Positions 43,401 through 59,249 of a DNA stretch of 64,000 bases are shown here, in pieces. The notes under the pieces were generated by a model, which saw only the letters and a list, made by a program, of their open reading frames with translations, made no database searches and was not told the DNA's origin. This DNA is from Asterias amurensis (taxonomy: Eukaryota; Echinodermata; Asteroidea; Forcipulatida; Asteriidae), in the NCBI RefSeq assembly GCF_032118995.1, contig NC_092656.1:22774965-22838964 (forward strand), given 5' to 3'. How positions within the stretch are numbered: position 1 is the stretch's first letter; every line of letters starts with the position of its first letter. Made by a program: the position numbers and the translations under genes.

Positions 43401-46400
43401 CGTGGTTGTGTAGTGTCTCATTTGAATTGTGTATGGTTGTGTATATTCCCATTGACTTGTGTATGGTTGTGTAGTTTCCCATTGACTTGTGTATGGTTGT
43501 GTAGTTTCCCATTGACTTGTGTATGGTTGTGTAGTTTCCCATTGACTTGTGTATGGTTGTGTAGTTTCCCATTGACTTGTGTATGGTTGTGTAGTTTCCC
43601 ATTGACTTGTGTATGGTTGTGTAGTTTCCCATTGACATGTGTATGGTTGTAAAGTGCCCTACTGACTTGTGTATGGTTGTGTAGTTTCCCATTGACTTGT
43701 GTATGGTTGTGTAGTTTCCCATTGACTTGTGTATGGTTGTGTAGTTTCCCATTGACTTGTGTATGGTTGTGTAGTTTCCCATTGACATGTGTATGGTTGT
43801 GTAGTTTCCCATTGACATGTGTATGGTTGTAAAGTGTCCTATTGACTTGTGTATGGTTGTGTAGTTTCCAATTGACATGTGTATGGTTGTGTAGTTTCCC
43901 ATTGACTTGTGTATGGTTGTGTAGTTTCCCATTGACTTGTGTATGGTTGTGTAGTTTCCCATTGACTTGTGTATGGTTGTGTAGTTTCCCATTGACTTGT
44001 GTATGGTTGTGTAGTTTCCCATTGACATGTGTATGGTTGTAAAGTGTCCTATTGACTTGTGTATGGTTGTGTAGTTTCCAATTGACTTGTGTATGGTTGT
44101 GTAGTTTCCCATTGACTTGTGAATGGTTGTGTAGTTTCCCATTGACTTGTGTGTGTACGCTGTACGCTAGCTGTATGGACATGAGTGGGAATCGCTATGA
44201 TGTATAATGGGTCTGAATGCGCTGCCGGACGGTATACGGGCCACCGATGTGAGCCGGACAACCCTCGTTTGGTCGGTACGGTGTCAAACAACTTCAAAGA
44301 GAGGAGGGGTTCCTTGGCCCCGTTGTATTGTGTTTCATTATAACACGAGGACTAGCATCATAAGTACAATGTAGCTGGTAGATTTGTCCCTGAATGGGAA
44401 GCTGCTTTACTATAAGTGTAACGTTGTAGTGTAGTAGTATGGCAGGAGTTAGTTTATGAAATTGATCTTTACTTGTAGTTGTTGTTAAGCCACACGCCAT
44501 CTTCTACAGTCTGGTATGTTTTCGACCAACACATAATTTATTTTCGATCCCCAAATTTGATTTACCGCGAGAAACGTAACGAATAATATGTCTAGACAAA
44601 ATAAACAGCTGGGTTTCTTATCTCATCTGGTCTGAAATGAGGAAAACAGTAATGTTATTAAATGTTTGTGCTTCAAGGGGATGAGTATGCCCAACATCTA
44701 AGAATTCTAACCAAGTAGCCATTGCCGGAAACCCATGACACCTTCATACTTTTTGAACCTTTCTCAAACACATTTCACACAATGTATGGTCTAATTTTCT
44801 TCCTTCTTATTTCTAAATCCATGATTGGTGCATTAAACCTGGTTGTTTTATTTTGTTGAAAGCTTCTGCAGCTGTGCCACGATGTACTGTTGCAAATTAT
44901 ACACCGTACCATTGATATATAGTACACAACTTTGTTTTAGGGTAGGGATTTCTCCCTCACGCCCGCCGCCATTGCAATTTTTTGCACAGCAGCCACAAGA
45001 CTTGTTGTTTACATGTACGTCTGAGAGCACGTGCGTGTGCTTGCAGAACGTTGTGATTGACATCGCAGCAAGAGTTTATAGGTCAACCAACAACCAATGA
45101 GACCGGGTTGTTAGTAAACTTTAGCATAATGAGCTCCACCCTAAATTTTGGCAGTTACAGAACCATCAAGGCGCTACTTTAGAAATACTCATGTACCGAA
45201 TGTGTACCATATAGATGGTAATGTCTATGTACAGTAGGTATAGGTGTGTACATACGCTGTACACATATTATGCACTGTGTTATGTATGGGGGTGCGCTGG
45301 TGGAATTCAGTGATTTCGGACTGGGATTTTGCGGGTCGCGGCTGGCTGTAGCGCCTTGATCAAGGCTAACACCAACATGACCAAGGAAACTCAAATTTCC
45401 AAAACTCACACTGAGGAGTGGTTTTGTCACTCGGACAAAATAATTGTAATAAAAGAAATTGTAATTATCAATGATTGAAGCTTTTAAAGGGAAGGTACAC
45501 GTTTTCACAGGCTTGTTATTTTATGCTTATGATGGGATACACCTAGTGAGAACACTGGTCTTTGACAATTACCAACTGTGTACAGTACCTTTAAGAGGAT
45601 GCAACTTTTCATTTGAATATTGTTTCTACTGTTACAAAAACAAAGTACCAACCACTTTTGATGCCAAATGTTTCATCCAGTAATCCCTCATACGTTGTCT
45701 GTGTGCACAGCGGGGTCACCAGGTCAGCTTCACGATCAATCAGGAATATATGGCCGATCTCATTCCGGATGGGTGCACGGGGCTCTCCCTGTAGTGACTG
45801 TAGTGTTTTTACAAGATCCCATACCATCTGGAATAAGAACAGCCAATGCAATTTAAAACCCAGGTTTAAAGGAACACGTTGCCTTGGATCGGTCGAGTTG
45901 GTCTTTGAAAAGCGTTTGTAACCGTTTTTTATAAAATGCATATTGGTAGAAAGATGTTGTAAAAGTAGAATACAATGATCCACACAAACATGCCTCGAAA
46001 TTGCGTAGTTTTCCTTTTACCTTGTCGACTAACACGTCGGCCATTTATGAGGGTCAAAATTTTGACTCCCATAAATGGCCGACCATGTTAGTTCGCACAG
46101 TAGAAGGAAAACCACGCAATTTCGAGGCAAACTTGTGTGGATCATTGTATTCTACTTTTAAAACATCTTTCCAACCATATGCATTTTATAAAAAACGGTT
46201 ACAAACGCTTTTGTTTTGACCAACTCGTCCGATCCAAGGCAACGTGTTCCTTTAAGACCAAATTACTTAATTGTGTAGTATTGTCCATGTTCACGCCTCC
46301 ATACCAACACTTACCATCATAAGAAATAGAAAGATCGGATCTTTCCAACGATGGTAAAATGAAATCAGGTTATTACACAATCCCTTCAAATTGGGCTTTA

Positions 46401-49900: not shown

Positions 49901-52724
49901 CACACATATCCTGGTCATTTGATTGGCAGAACACTTGACTTGTCTCATCTTTTGTAATCCGTCCTAACTTAAGATGAGTTCAATGCGTCCTAACATCCTC
50001 AAATACGGAACTGAACTCGTCTGCATTCCTAAGATTAATCCCAAGTTAGGAAGAGTTTGGTGAAATTGACAGCTGTTATGAATAACTCATGAGTGAGGTC
50101 GCTTTTGTTTTCAAAGTAGATTTTCCAGAGTGTTGGGTGGACAATTTTTGTGTATAATGTATTTTCTGAGCTAAGCCTATAACTGAAATAAGGAGTGAAC
50201 TCATTCATTCGCATGCGCAAGTCATAGTCGATCAATGATGATGATGAGAAACTTGATTGAGGAAATGCTATTTACCTTTAGAAGCTGAGCTCCAGCTATC
50301 CTGTCTAAGGGTCTCATTAATTCAGGATCTATTACTAGGTCCTTCATCTCAGGAATCTGCAAGGTATGATGAGGGGTGAGTGGAGATGATGTGATGTGAT
50401 AATTATCTGATAAGAAATATTGTCCACATGAATATCAAATCCCTAACCCAGAAGTGTCCTTGGCTATAGACACTCCTGACATGCCTGAATCCTGAAAACA
50501 AATTACCCACTATGGTAATGTAAATGATCAGTCCCACATTTACATGATTTGGTACACGTTTGTTTACCTCAGGCTTCCAAGCTTCACTGATTAACTGCAA
50601 AAATGAGTGTATATTGACTCAATCTTTAACAAAACCAGGTGGTTTAGAGGTACATGTAGGTAAGTTCAAAATTACATCAACAAGAGACGGTACATACACG
50701 TACATGTATCCATGCAGGATACATGAATAATATTTTGATACAGGAGGCTCCCGTCATGCCAATGCAAGTCGCCCAATAAAAGTGGGTTCTGTCCCATGCT
50801 CACCATTTTGGCTTTATAAACATGATAAATGTACAAACATTTAACCCCCCCCCCTTGACAAAGTTTCACAAACATTTGCCTCAAAATAATAAATCAGTAT
50901 TGAACTTTTAAAGTACTTAAATACAATGATCCATTTAGACCTTTTTGCGAATCATGCCTGGCTGATTTTTCTCAATGCTTTTCGACAATTGAGAAAAATC
51001 AGCAAGGCGGGATTTGCGATATTCGGTCTATCAATTTATTAAAATAAAGTAACACAAATGAATGGGACAAAAGAGTGAGGAAAATTTCTGTATCCTGCCA
51101 CCACTTTTTATTTGTTATGTAGGTAATAACAAAATATTTGTTTACCAAATGAGATATTACTTTTTGTAAAAAATATTTTAAAAAATTGTGAAAAAGTGCT
51201 GGCAGCATACAATTTGAATCGTGTATTCCACCACTACTGTGACTTTGTCACTCATTTTGTTTTATTAAAACAAACATTGACTAGACACCAAACAAATTTT
51301 GGGGAGGCGGAAAAGTTTCTGTATGGCGCCATCACTTTTTCATGTTGTATCTAATTTATGCAATTATTGATAATGATATGCCTTTTAGTCAAAATTTGTG
51401 AAAAAGTGGTGGCGCCATACGGAAAGTTTATATCCGGGGAGGCTTCAACAATAGTATGCTTTTCAAGTTTCAAAATCAAATGACAAGTCTTTTTTAAGTA
51501 GCAGATCGGGCACTGGTGACTTGTTGGGAGATGACTGTGCGGCCCTACTCCTAGAACTATTTCGGTTTCGTCCGGCTATCGTCTCCCGTAACCTCATAGG
51601 TTTATATCTCTCACGCGTTCAACGACCCATGGTTCAATGAATTTCGGCATCAGGAATCTCTCTTTTTTTTTTTTTTAATCTCGCCAAAATTAGGCTCTAT
51701 GTGTCCTTTGATGTATCAATGTGTATTCTTTTGACCAGAGAATCCACTCCACAATCTCAAAAATTGTTAAAAATGATAAATTCTTACCGTAATTTCAGAT
51801 TCCCTATCTACTGTACGTGTTACTCCTCTGCCAACAATAATTGAAAATTACCCGACCTCGTTTTGCGAAAATGCGTCACGAGAGGGCGGGTACGATCCGT
51901 GATTTGTGTACAAAACATACACGGAACCACGAAGCTCGCACAGGGTACCAGTATGTACACTTTTTGCACACAGCCGTTTACATACTGGTACCCTGTGCGA
52001 GCTTCGTGGTTCCGTGTATGTTTTGTACACAAATCACGGATCGCACCCGCCCTCTCGTGACGCATTTTCGCAAAACGAGGTCGGGTAATTTTCAATTATT
52101 GTTGGCAGAGGAGTAACACGTACAGTAGATAGGGAATCTGAAATTACGGTAAGAATTTATCATTTTTAACAATTTTTGAGATTGTGGAGTGGATTCTCTG
52201 GTCAAAAGAATACACGTTGATACATCAAAGGACACATAGAGCCTAATTTTGGCGAGATTAAAAAAAAAAAAAAGAGAGATTCCTGATGCCGAAATTCATT
52301 GAACCATGGGTCGTTGAACGCGTGAGAGATATAAACCTATGAGGTTACGGGAGACGATAGCCGGACGAAACCGAAATAGTTCTAGGAGTAGTGCGGCCCC
52401 ATCCATCCAGCACAACCAGGCAGAGGACTGCACACAGACCTGACGCAGGCCACGCCCACCCACGTACAGACAGTGCAGAGTTCTGCAGCTAGCAGAAATA
52501 GCAGGTCGACTGATTACTGAATTGTCCGAAAACTGGACAAACATAAGTAAACGGACAGTACTACGCCTAATTCGAGCACAATGTGAATAATATGAAGCTT
52601 GCGTTCAACATGTAGCGCTTTATCAGACTGTTGAACTACTTACAGATTCCAAAAGATGTACCAAATGTTCTTTTGAGAGTTGTTTCAACACGGAGAAATC
52701 CGGAGACTTTATGGTAGTCGCCAT
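31475..52724 (-). CDS. VPS33B: VPS33B: Sec1/Munc18-family vesicle tethering protein, 21 exons
   Basis: SM protein expected to pair with VIPAS39 and control late endosome/lysosome-related organelle trafficking. Exons in coding order: 52644-52724, 50568-50594, 50276-50356, 49702-49763, 49061-49110, 48218-48285, 47836-47881, 47380-47474, 46739-46843, 45653-45827, 42751-42824, 42067-42153, 41597-41690, 38971-39048, 38187-38251, 35555-35609, 34362-34585, 33686-33784, 33366-33459, 32499-32618, 31475-31554. All introns are GT-AG, phases agree, and the total is 619 residues (vertebrate VPS33B about 617). Diagnostic stretches: PEFSVLK-type start (PDFSVLKQLSKEHLVHLLES), MRPLDRIA, LELPSFFRDYFL, NEIGHIFLIDREADLVTPLC, YEGLLDETFGIKSG, HLLTFSNLRKLGLYTEQ, AYVFSGA-like SYVFSGAFTPLTCKL, VYFLGGCTYAEMAALR. 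These fit VPS33B better than VPS33A. It ends GSLNDGKK. The promoter side has a CCAAT box at about 52747. Intron 1 (50595-52643) holds the foldback element, intron 10 the 30-bp minisatellite and intron 13 a nested transposon. Confidence 0.95.
32671..33008 (+). mobile_element. Full-length tRNA-headed SINE
   Basis: The head GTTGTGGCTGAGCGGATAAG ... GAGTGTGGGTTTGAATCCCG has A-box- and B-box-like promoter elements. The large spacing between them fits derivation from a type II (Leu/Ser) tRNA. The body includes CTCTCCACCCTGGGGTAAAT. The 3' end AAGCGCTTTGGGACGCCCTC ... GGTTATTGTTATTAA carries the tail. It is the best copy in the window and served as my reference for the others. It lies just upstream (in VPS33B sense) of exon 20, in intron 19. 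Confidence 0.85.
33985..34135 (-). mobile_element. SINE head, reverse
   Basis: The minus strand gives GTAGTGGCTGAGCAGTCTAG ... GAGTATGGGTTCGAATCCTG and ACACTTGTGCTCTTGCGCAA. It is the head and beginning of the body of the 32671 family, in VPS33B intron 17. Confidence 0.7.
34195..34320. repeat. Interspersed repeat, family D
   Basis: Contains CATTGGCTGAGAGTTGTGCG, CATGCACTTTGTCATTC and GCGTTTTGTGCAATCCATC, each shared with 10255-10375 and/or 14395-14505. It ends about 40 bp from the donor of VPS33B exon 17 (34362). Confidence 0.6.
34715..34925 (-). mobile_element. SINE family 2 copy, reverse
   Basis: The minus strand contains GGTCACTTAGGTGGTAGAGT, CCGGAGGCCAAAGGTTAAAA and the family 2 body. 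It is decayed relative to 63540 and lies in VPS33B intron 16. Confidence 0.55.
35655..35945 (+). mobile_element. SINE copy
   Basis: AGCCAAGAGCTTAACTAAAG ... CAGAGGGTGGGAGTCGAGTA is a decayed head. It is followed by CTTGAGCAAGATACTTTACC, CTTTGTCCTTCGGACG and AAAGAACCCAGAACAC. It starts about 45 bp upstream (in gene sense) of VPS33B exon 16, in intron 15. Confidence 0.65.
37346..37576. mobile_element. MITE family C copy
   Basis: Ends GGGACCAATTTCATAGAGCT and AGCAGCTCTATGAAATTGGG, about 230 bp, with hairpin arms. It lies in VPS33B intron 15. A lone tRNA-like B box (GTGGGTTCGAATCCCACTC) sits 55 bp to its right. Confidence 0.85.
39200..39330 (+). mobile_element. SINE family 2 fragment
   Basis: GGCATGTTAATCTGGAGGTC, GCAGGCTCGAATCCTGCTCA and the body AACCCAATCAGTTTGACCTG match the copy at 63540. 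The A-box end is missing. It lies in VPS33B intron 13. Confidence 0.7.
39385..39605 (+). mobile_element. LINE fragment, post-RT region
   Basis: Open frame with LLMRVQNISWQDYKTKEQIY and VAQHRVRFAGHCLRAKD. This is the conserved region after the reverse transcriptase in RTE-like and related non-LTR elements (pattern L-x-x-x-x-N-x-S-W-x-D-x-x-T-N-x-x-L-Y-G ... R-x-x-F-A-G-H-C). Only about 70 residues remain. It abuts the family B MITE at 39620. Confidence 0.7.
39698..41470. mobile_element. DNA element with six GTCACGCGAGTCAC motifs, nested in a MITE
   Basis: 1,773 bp inserted in the family B MITE. The ends are CAGCCATTCCAT and its exact complement ATGGAATGGCTG, a 12-bp terminal inverted repeat. 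The flanks ATAT (left) and ACAT (right) fit a roughly 4-bp target duplication with one change. Inside are six copies of the 14-mer at 40058, 40226, 41055, 41077, 41266 and 41444, all in the same direction. There is no long coding frame, so it is non-autonomous. I do not recognise the superfamily. Confidence 0.7.
40794..40875. repeat. Hairpin, GGTTCTGAAAAGAA arms
   Basis: Arms GGTTCTGAAAAGAACTGGTG and TTGAACCACCAATTCTTTTC-AGAACC are nearly perfect complements about 80 bp end to end. It lies inside the 39698-41470 element. A single related arm (CAGTTCTTTTCAGAACTG) is at 35392. Confidence 0.75.
42280..42420 (-). mobile_element. tRNA-headed SINE fragment, second head type
   Basis: On the minus strand GGGTCGTGGGTTCGAATCCC is followed by CCTGTGATTTTTTTCACAGG and a body shared with 13870-14005. 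It lies in VPS33B intron 11. Confidence 0.6.
42875..42950 (-). mobile_element. tRNA-like SINE head
   Basis: The minus strand reads GCTAGCTCGCTCAGCTAGTA ... CGTAGGTTGTAGGTTCAAGT. It is a family 2 head lying 50 bp from VPS33B exon 11 (42824). Confidence 0.55.
43050..43404. other. CG-rich block in VPS33B intron 10
   Basis: CG dinucleotides are far denser here than in the surrounding intron (GGCCCGGCGCGGCAC, CTCGCACACGCGGCTC). A CCAAT box (GGCCAATCACAG) lies at about 43339 and GCGCG nearby. TATA-like strings were not convincing. It could be a small CpG island or an inserted sequence; I could not decide. Confidence 0.4.
43405..44150. repeat. 30-bp minisatellite with higher-order pattern
   Basis: About 24 copies of a 30-bp unit (TTGTGTATGGTTGTGTAGTT plus TCCCATTGAC). 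A variant unit with TTGTAAAGTG recurs at 43651, 43831 and 44041, that is 6 and then 7 units apart. The unit after it (TTTCCAATTGAC) recurs at the same 210-bp step, so larger blocks were duplicated. The 272- and 254-codon open frames here exist only because 30 is a multiple of three. It lies in VPS33B intron 10. Confidence 0.97.
44151..45480. other. Intron 10 spacer, no gene seen
   Basis: About 1.3 kb of VPS33B intron 10. Its left 250 bp share the CG-rich composition seen on the other side of the minisatellite. No exon of VPS33B is missing between exons 10 and 11, because protein similarity is continuous across this intron. Confidence 0.5.
45484..45594. mobile_element. MITE family A, internal-deleted half copy
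   Basis: Bounded by TTAA at both ends. It contains TTTTCACAGGCTTGTTATTT, TATGCTTATGATGGGATACA and TTGACAATTACCAACTGTGT, the right arm of family A. It ends 59 bp from VPS33B exon 10 (45653). Confidence 0.75.
45866..46255. mobile_element. MITE family B, near-perfect palindrome
   Basis: 390 bp, TTAA-flanked, with arms reading AGGAACACGTTGCCTTGGAT inward from both ends and meeting near GTCAAAATTTTGAC at about 46055-46068. It lies 39 bp upstream of VPS33B exon 10. It is nearly identical, in inverted orientation, to the copy at 58857-59249. Short open frames on it are not genes. Confidence 0.92.
46925..47275 (-). mobile_element. SINE copy with (AAT)n tail, reverse
   Basis: An (AAT)n run at 46931-46968 is followed by the complement of the AGCGCT...TATATAAGAAG tail. 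The body (GGGTAAATGGGAACCTGTGA, AGCAAGACACAT) follows and then the tRNA-like head GTGTGGGTTTGAATCCCGGT. A nearly complete copy of the 32671 family, in VPS33B intron 8. Confidence 0.8.
49436..49675 (-). mobile_element. SINE copy, reverse
   Basis: The minus strand contains GTGTCATGGCCAATCAGTTA, GATGTGGGTTAGAACCCGGT and TTGTCCTTGAGCAAGACACT with TGAAATGGGTGCCTGTGAGG. It ends about 25 bp from the donor of VPS33B exon 4 (49702). Confidence 0.65.
49930..50070. repeat. Palindromic repeat related to 25660
   Basis: CCTAACTTAAGATGAGTTCA and GTTAGGAAGAGTTTGGTGAA share blocks with 25660-25800. It is probably a MITE relic in VPS33B intron 3. Confidence 0.45.
50936..51030. repeat. Imperfect palindrome, 95 bp
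   Basis: Arms TAGACCTTTTTGCGAATCAT...CTGATTTTTCTCAAT and ATTGAGAAAAATCAG...GCGATATTCGGTCTA pair with a short loop. It lies in VPS33B intron 1. Confidence 0.75.
51085..51215. repeat. Hairpin element, CTGCCACCACTTTTT arms
   Basis: TTTCTGTATCCTGCCACCAC on the left pairs with GTGCTGGCAGCATACAATTT on the right. The centre is AT-rich. Confidence 0.65.
51308..51432. repeat. Hairpin element, GGCGCCA arms
   Basis: TTTCTGTATGGCGCCATCAC pairs with GTGGTGGCGCCATACGGAAA. It is a sibling of the hairpin at 51085 with better preserved arms. A lone arm (CTGCCACCACCTTTTCAC) occurs at about 5318. Confidence 0.75.
51537..52399. mobile_element. Foldback DNA element with 415-bp arms and 9-bp target duplication
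   Basis: Two arms, 51546-51960 and 51976-52390, are inverted copies of equal length that differ at only a handful of bases. They are separated by a 15-bp spacer. The 9-mer GTGCGGCCC lies immediately outside both ends in the same orientation (51537-51545 and 52391-52399). Long inverted repeats with a 9-bp target-site duplication are typical of Mutator-like (MULE/foldback) elements. No transposase is present; the matching 91-codon frames on both strands simply reflect the palindrome. It is inserted in VPS33B intron 1, about 245 bp from exon 1. Confidence 0.88.
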
Positions 52725-52739
52725 CCTTAGAGATGTTTG

Positions 52740-52755
52740 TAACAGCCAATCAAGA
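52740..52755 (-). promoter_or_regulatory. CCAAT box upstream of VPS33B
   Basis: GCCAATCA on the plus strand (GATTGGC in gene sense is the inverted CCAAT) lies about 20-25 bp before the ATG at 52724, followed by GGCGC. It suggests a short leader and a TATA-less promoter. Inference from motif and position only. Confidence 0.35.
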
Positions 52756-53752
52756 GATGGCGCTGTTCACCGAATCTGTACTGGAATTAGAATTGTGAAC
52801 GGTCGCGATGCTGACGAGACCAATTCTGTTCTGAAATTGGAATTTGTGGACGGTCGCGATGCAAGTTCCCCCATCAACATGATAATAACAGTGTTCGTCA
52901 CCAACCTAACCCCCTACCTAAATGACAAAGGTAATGCATGAAACAAACACACCAAAAGAGAAATAACTCGGAAGGCGGCGGCAAAAGGATGAAGGGCGGC
53001 TCCGTGTAGTCTATAAGATTTGGCAACTACCTGTAAGGAGTAGATTCTGTATACCCTGGTGGGGTTCGAAACTACTTCTCATAGCTTTCTCAGTACATGT
53101 TAATTCACATTGGGGACAGAATCTCCTGCTGATAGGTTTCCTTTGGAAACCGGGTATTGGCATATTACACACAGTGGCGGCTGTGTGGTTAGCAGGAGAT
53201 TGAAATTACTCACGAGTTTCTACCGCAGAAACAGCCCGCGAACGCTTCTTTTTGACAGGCTATTGAAATGCAGAAAATTAGCAAAGTGGGCTCACCTGTC
53301 ACAGTGACAGAAATTACATGACCTTATGAGATACAACCAAAAAGTTCTTTACAACCCATACAAAAATTGAAAATTTTATTGGGCTGTTTCTTCGAATTTT
53401 ATACAGACCGACTCTCGCGTATGGAAGCCTACTGGAATCGGTAAACAGCCCGAGCAGAGTCCCACCAAATTGAAGGCATACATCAATTTGGCTAGTAATA
53501 ATGATCATCGATAACAATGGGCGTCAGCGAGGTGGTTAAACTAAATGGGGGTACATCATACGAATGGGTGTATTTCTTTGTAAAGATATTATTTTTATAA
53601 GACGTCCAGCGTTTGCCGAAACCGCGGGCCTCCTAATTAATGTGTACAGAACGTTTCTTTCAACTTGAACGACTGAAAAAAGTAACAGTATGATTAATCA
53701 AGACACATTAATCTTGTTTTAATAGCCTCATATTCTCCGTCAATTAGTTTGT
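52756..53752. other. VPS33B-methyltransferase spacer, left part
   Basis: No gene recognised. A 20-bp block with GGTCGCGATGC is repeated (52801 and 52852), together with TTCTG...AAATT(A/G)GAATT before it, a 60-bp tandem duplication. The rest is unremarkable. Confidence 0.5.
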
Positions 53753-58856: not shown

Positions 58857-59249
58857 TTAAAGGAACACGTTGCCTTGGATCGGACGAGTTGGTCAAAACA
58901 AAAGCGTTTGTAACCGTTTTTTATAAAATGCATATGGTTGGAAAGATGTTTTAAAAGTAGAATACAATGATCCACACAAGTTTGCCTCGAAATTGCGTGG
59001 TTTTCCTTCTACTGTGCGAACTAACATGGTCGGCCATTTATGGGAGTCAAAATTTTGACCCCCATAAATGGCCGACGTGTTAGTCGACAAGGTAAAAGGA
59101 AAACCACGCAATTTCGAGGCATGTTTGTGTGGATCATTGTATTCTACTTTTACAACATCTTTCTACCCATATGCATTTTATAAAAAAAAACGGTTACAAA
59201 CGCTTTTCAAAGACCAACTCGACCGATCCAAGGCAACGTGTTCCTTTAA
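58857..59249. mobile_element. MITE family B, near-perfect palindrome
   Basis: TTAA-flanked 393-bp palindrome centred near 59054. Read as the reverse complement it is almost the same sequence as 45866-46255, differing at only a few bases plus small homopolymer changes. Its coding-looking frames are the same artefacts as in that copy. Confidence 0.92.

Follow-up and report, generated by a model that had tools for sequence, protein, structure and literature searches.

The analysed stretch of the sea star Asterias amurensis (contig NC_092656.1, positions 22,774,965 to 22,838,964 of the forward strand; 64,000 nucleotides, called the window below) contains a hairpin element at 51546-52390. The whole element is a near-perfect palindrome of 845 bp. 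It has no transposase gene, and its two arms make up nearly all of its length. An earlier note, made from the letters of the window, had described two 415-bp arms, a 15-bp loop and the same 9 bp (GTGCGGCCC) at both edges. This structure was recovered completely, with three mismatches between the arms (arm positions 175, 347 and 413). No stop-to-stop frame longer than 91 aa was present inside the element. No direct-repeat family was detected in 51300-52600, and the Rfam scan of 51000-53000 gave no match at the gathering score. Folding of the element as RNA gave -785 kcal/mol against a mean of -204.9 kcal/mol for 20 shuffles, which is far beyond chance. The results given below identify it as a non-autonomous hairpin DNA transposon that was active recently and makes duplications of Mutator type.

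The element likely sits between coding exons 1 and 2 of VPS33B. A Sec1 (PF00995) match was found in the minus-strand frame 45609-46016. Two further minus-strand frames, one on each side of the element, were joined and aligned with the N terminus of a solved Vps33, which gave 9.9 bits, a score that alone is not significant. With human VPS33B as the reference, these frames are probably coding exons 1 and 2, and the gene is probably VPS33B rather than VPS33A. The position in VPS33B intron 1 given by the earlier note is therefore likely. The coordinates of the features are listed in Table 1.

Table 1. Features of the hairpin element and of the probable VPS33 exons beside it (window positions).
Feature	Position	Strand	Remark
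Left target-site duplication GTGCGGCCC	51537-51545	no strand	9 bp
Left arm	51546-51960	+	415 bp; starts with the family-wide end TACTCCTAGAACTATTTCGG
Loop TTTTTGCACACAGCC	51961-51975	no strand	15 bp
Right arm	51976-52390	-	415 bp; mismatched with the left arm at 3 positions
Right target-site duplication GTGCGGCCC	52391-52399	no strand	9 bp
Open frame, probable VPS33 exon 2	50222-50434	-	no Pfam match; human VPS33B as reference
Open frame, probable VPS33 first coding exon	52623-52766	-	no Pfam match; human VPS33B as reference

Two other repeats were observed in the window. A second short inverted repeat with 31-nt arms (90%) lies at 51312-51429, approximately 110 bp from the element; copy L033 inserted into related sequence, which is also present at several of the other loci read. 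An almost identical long frame (KDVVKVEYNDPHKHASK...) occurs at 45950-46219 and 58893-59162 on opposite strands, and is probably a dispersed repeat flanking the region.

The genome (491,506,623 bases, 23 contigs) was searched for relatives of the element. The 20-bp end matched 641 places when up to one mismatch was allowed, and the reversed control gave 0. Many copies were near-identical, and the concern that there might be no other copies anywhere was clearly refuted. The arm search gave 78 matches with 89-100% identity, in the 40 places scored among 567 first-look candidates. These 40 places form the family sample and were fetched and read in detail; these copies and the other loci read are labelled L below. 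Both full ends were present in 30 of them, 29 in the fetched stretches and L047 on longer reading. An exact target duplication accompanied 29 of the 40: 28 lay within the fetched stretches (27 of 9 bp and one of 10 bp), and L047, with its second end 4.4 kb away, had an exact 9-bp duplication. The duplication of L048 differed by one base. Seven of ten further elements picked from the end list also had exact 9-bp duplications, and the 35 exact duplications tallied from the sampled and further elements were 34 of 9 bp and one of 10 bp.

The family comprises several size classes. The loop region of the 845-bp class was found at 42 places with at most three mismatches (control 0). Mini-hairpins of 73-97 bp, which are scarcely more than the ends, were common; the 19-mer of their centre gave 85 and 91 matches on the two strands (control 5 and 6), most sites being counted twice since it is a near-palindrome. 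A 975-bp hairpin class was also found, as were members of mosaic or nested structure that measured between 171 and 1595 bp. The first 47 bp or so of the left arm are common to the mini-hairpins and the 975-bp class. Dispersed copies, inverted ends, exact target duplications and the lack of a transposase gene place the family among the miniature inverted-repeat transposable elements (MITEs), or non-autonomous hairpins. The arms are not built of short tandem repeats as in the classical foldback elements (FB, TU, Tm1). Because the arms hold no direct-repeat family, we classed the element as a hairpin MITE with foldback-like behaviour, not as a classical FB.

Some members had unusual arrangements. 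L061 and L044 (C4:7.600-7.605 Mb) belong to different classes, lie approximately 1.9 kb apart in nearly identical targets with duplications TCACCTGAC and CACCTGACC, and resemble each other in their right flanks. It looks as if a segment had been duplicated and then either been hit twice or exchanged its elements. L063 (C3:21832855-21833025; 171 bp) has one left end followed by three successive right-hand ends. L062 (C3:8876800-8877750) lies in telomere-like CCCTAA repeats.

The arms of 25 of the 40 copies could both be aligned. Four copies with large arm deletions (L012, L032, L035 and L038) and 11 copies with one end detected in the fetched stretches, including L047, were left out, and homopolymer columns were masked before substitutions were counted. 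The loop TTTTTGCACACAGCC was kept with at most one or two changes in 24 of the 25 copies; the loop region of L045 was altered. Since these 24 copies share one loop and stem end, a single hairpin was likely their ancestor.

The 25 copies held 78 private one-arm substitutions. Unexpectedly, 13 substitutions occurred in both arms of at least two copies, all at arm positions 69-255. Nine were in both arms of one copy only, and five were seen once per side, in different copies. Another five were on the same side only in at least two copies: 401, 402 and 413, at most 15 bp from the loop, and 29 and 271. The mismatch at position 413 was found in 23 of the 25 copies. The split in position between two-arm and same-side variants gave p = 0.012 (Fisher), with small numbers. 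The 26 variants present in at least two copies filled 56 copy-by-variant cells with both arms and 50 with one arm; position 413 accounts for 23 of the 50. Shuffling the right arms among copies gave 12.3 two-arm cells on average and never more than 35, and 0 of 10,000 shuffles reached 56. The shuffle test ignores relatedness; it therefore shows within-copy matching, not a rate.

Partial states were found at six variants (69, 76, 100, 250, 255 and 279). The variant at position 250 is in one arm of L024 and in both arms of L025 and L026. Both arms of the older L048, and likewise both arms of the 975-bp L059, have the other base at positions 100, 181, 206 and 255. The arms within one element were 99.3% identical in the window copy and 96.3% in L059, compared with approximately 76% between the 845-bp and 975-bp classes.

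Judged from these substitution patterns, the arms appear to evolve in concert, as though one arm served as the template for the other. An identical new base in the two arms argues for such copying between them, and the survival of loop-proximal differences suggests that copying begins at the loop-proximal stem. In the mechanism we propose, a transposase acting in trans would recognise the shared end of approximately 45 bp and would make 9-bp staggered cuts at the target, as the duplications suggest. Arm-to-arm copying would keep the arms equal, so that inherited mutations would show in both, and differences very near the loop would tend to escape it. The copying step may be fold-back-primed synthesis or the repair of a folded single strand. 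We therefore hold with good confidence that the element is a non-autonomous hairpin transposon of foldback or MITE type, recently inserted in a probable VPS33 intron and served in trans by a transposase most likely of the Mutator superfamily, and that its arms are equalised by arm-to-arm copying. A further proposal is made tentatively, as a possible rather than an expected outcome. Arm-to-arm copying might be a regular step of the life cycle, in which synthesis primed by a folded single strand at its loop-proximal stem would replace the remainder of one arm by a copy of the other; the palindrome would then correct itself, evolve as a unit and shed hairpins of varied length.

Several observations weigh against arm-to-arm copying or against the wider reading of the family. 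The same-side variants 29 and 271, which are in older copies, lie far from the loop. Position 392, only 23 bp from the loop, is changed in both arms of L023 and in one arm of L011, which blurs the loop boundary. The shared two-arm changes all end at position 255, a limit that is not expected from simple fold-back copying. The arms were less alike in the 975-like L062 (89.7%) and in the old 845-class L048 (94.0%). An autonomous partner was not found in the loci read. Finally, 10 of the 40 sampled copies lacked a full second end in the DNA read. Two of these (L010 and L040) have duplications, and of their second end the final 8 bp are left; L037 breaks off close to the second end, with no duplication found downstream; L046 is rearranged; and L014, L029, L030, L031, L034 and L036 stop in or after the loop region, with neither a second end nor a duplication downstream in the DNA read.

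These last six copies bear on another origin of equal arms, in which one-armed elements would re-form the palindrome by copying the surviving arm through the loop, rather than by gene conversion in intact hairpins. Such half copies would be the starting material, and the surviving differences at 401, 402 and 413 are what a primer stem would leave. However, the half copies were judged on approximately 1.5 kb beyond each, and a far second end is possible for L014, L030 and L031. L047 was first counted as one-ended before its second end was located. For L029, L034 and L036, no partner end lay nearby among the matches listed. One-ended copies should not transpose, and the partial states, such as those at position 250, also fit conversion in intact copies. 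We regard re-formation as somewhat unlikely.

The transposase was sought among the Mutator-like elements (MULEs) of the genome. The MULE domain PF10551 gave 24 genome matches at E up to 10, of which 12 were above the cut-off. No family end with at most four mismatches was found around the 13 of these 24 loci that were scanned (L049, L051 and L053 to 1.5 kb only). Matches with 5-6 mismatches in MULE loci were at chance level and were discarded. Among the first 100 end places listed (C1-C3, and C4 up to 13.8 Mb), no exact end lay within 10 kb of the MULE loci C2:10212584 and C3:21149967, and opposed exact ends were either at most 1.6 kb apart or far apart. The ends diverged after position 47 or 20 at 8 and 4 places, respectively, and the inner DNA at 8 of these places held no recognised transposase.

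The duplications of the family fall within the 8-11 bp of MULE target duplications (PMC6446971). From their length and the long inverted repeats, the transposase is most likely of the Mutator superfamily; the label rests on these two features because no transposase with these ends was found around the 13 MULE-domain loci read. The earlier note had called the element Mutator-like and had suggested looking for a full MULE transposase with the same ends. Duplications of 9 bp, rarely 10 bp, together with the long inverted repeats are consistent with the first, and the 13 MULE-domain loci read did not provide the second. The same hairpin transposon might be moved by a non-Mutator transposase, for example Merlin. 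Merlin target duplications are 8-9 bp, and six PF12762 (Merlin-type) matches exist in the genome (positions only). That none of the MULE-domain loci read has these ends would also suit such a transposase. The occasional 10-bp duplication and the long inverted repeats, together with the 9-bp duplications, fit the MULE range instead (PMC6446971). We consider a non-Mutator transposase improbable.

One candidate for the autonomous partner was rejected. At C1:7923639-7927998 (L094 and L047), a 4,360-bp end pair, one end with a mismatch, is bordered by the exact 9-bp duplication and contains a THAP-domain frame. THAP is a kind of DNA-binding domain known from P-type transposases. The L047 arm halts at CCGTAAC and resumes at CCGTAAC after a 3.5-kb piece with its own inverted ends TAGGCAGTTTC/TAGGCTGTTTC, and a shorter relative of this piece lies beside L021. 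Because the THAP piece is a separate insert with its own inverted ends and the 7-bp repeat, the element was not taken as the partner. We read it as an 845-class hairpin interrupted by another transposon, possibly of P type.

Resident MULEs were characterised in the same loci. The family of L050, L052, L058, L049, L051 and L053 (C7, C17, C15, C4 and C3) has minisatellite inverted ends (GGTGTCAGGACACTTCGTACC...) and resembles the Rehavkus/foldback architecture; its C7 copy, of L050 type, has the 9-bp duplication GGTGAACTC. The second family, L054 and L055 (C9 and C11), has minisatellite-like ends and a frame with MULE above and PHD and FLYWCH below the cut-off. Both families resemble the hairpin family in having inverted ends in the same host, and the L050 type also in a 9-bp duplication. 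Their ends, GGTGTCAGGACACTTCGTACC... in the L050 type and minisatellite-like in both, are unrelated to the TACTCC ends of the hairpins. L057 (C15:2376503-2379790) has a 1045-aa MULE frame, and a second frame of equal length is at C3:21149967; the C-terminal part of L057 is presumably Ulp1-protease-like. L084 and L085 (C15 and C11) match the MULE domain weakly in long frames of 765 and 498 aa, lack the hairpin ends and are possibly domesticated transposases.

The family was compared with known systems. The Tm1 Mutator/Foldback elements of root-knot nematodes are similar in their 8-10-bp, mostly 9-bp duplications, non-autonomous MITE-like members and inverted repeats of variable length (PMC3169594). 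They differ in three respects: Tm1 ends consist of 13-15-bp tandem repeats, whereas no direct repeats were detected in the sea star element; Tm1 ends average 93.15% identity within an element, below the value of the window arms; and Tm1 has a partner, which encodes a Phantom-type MULE transposase (PMC3169594), whereas none was found for the sea star family in the loci read. Tetris/DAIBAM of Drosophila virilis are foldback elements with 8-10-bp duplications, a long and a short element with a common terminal sequence and no autonomous copy found (PMC4079207). Tetris carries tandem repeats internally, together with a middle domain (PMC4079207); the sea star element is palindromic over almost its whole length, with a loop of 15 bp. 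Galileo of Drosophila has long inverted repeats, and its secondary structure has been proposed to provoke breaks; it differs as a P-superfamily element with ends of approximately 575 bp and a middle segment of approximately 350 bp in the copies described (PMC2775673). The TU elements of the sea urchin (1983 report cited in PMC4079207) are also foldback elements of echinoderms. They have outer tandem repeats and 8-bp duplications, and they were set apart by these features, not by sequence.

The 37 joined insertion sites were compared with the fetched DNA, and five had matches across the junction. L027 and L013 gave gap-free alignments at the junction to related repeats with the duplicated 9-mer present once, that is, paralogous empty sites; the target of L027 was a resident MULE, within its minisatellite end. 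The junction matches of L033 and L060 were ambiguous, one with a gap and one with a repeat-unit duplication, and the fifth match was at L035. An empty site of the window copy, which had been proposed as a check, was not found in this genome: the flanks are unique, and when joined they matched only the two sides of the window's own insertion. The 17 young copies differed by 0.59% on average (homopolymers excluded), and the reported heterozygosity of A. amurensis is 0.96% (PMC11090083). Many insertions may therefore still be polymorphic.

Such small divergence could also mean that the arms are alike merely through the youth of the copies, without any arm-to-arm copying. This explanation is very unlikely: youth cannot put the same new base into both arms, as seen in the 13 variants shared by at least two copies each and in the alternative state that both arms of L048 and L059 hold at positions 100, 181, 206 and 255. 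The A. amurensis assembly was built from PacBio high-fidelity (HiFi) reads and has 491,537,102 bases in 22 scaffolds (PMC10625585). Palindromes are prone to mis-assembly and this one was judged from assembled sequence, not reads, but an assembly artefact or a simple local inverted duplication can practically be discounted because HiFi data and hifiasm were used (PMC10625585), the insertions are separate with their own duplications, and single arms carry private differences, which would be missing had the two arms been collapsed into one another. The recent foldback insertion proposed at the outset was thus upheld by near-identical copies, exact duplications, paralogous empty sites and the HiFi assembly.

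Long near-perfect palindromes are expected to be unstable. To our knowledge, how foldback or hairpin transposons keep their arms equal has seldom been shown. A search for literature on arm homogenisation in hairpin elements, judged by titles and the beginnings of abstracts, gave nothing on exactly that, which is no proof of absence. Within a single genome, the sea star family combines recent copies with subfamilies, with partial states and with the exception near the loop. Gene conversion, fold-back copying and re-formation from half copies could be distinguished if further copies and a second individual were added. The proposal that VPS33B transcripts through the element could be a Dicer substrate, with small interfering RNA acting in trans on other copies, is compatible with the predicted stem, and the family is an example from echinoderms of intronic hairpins that could supply small-RNA pathways. 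It is a transposon family of a known kind, in a sea star, and the concerted evolution of its arms is the part worth following.

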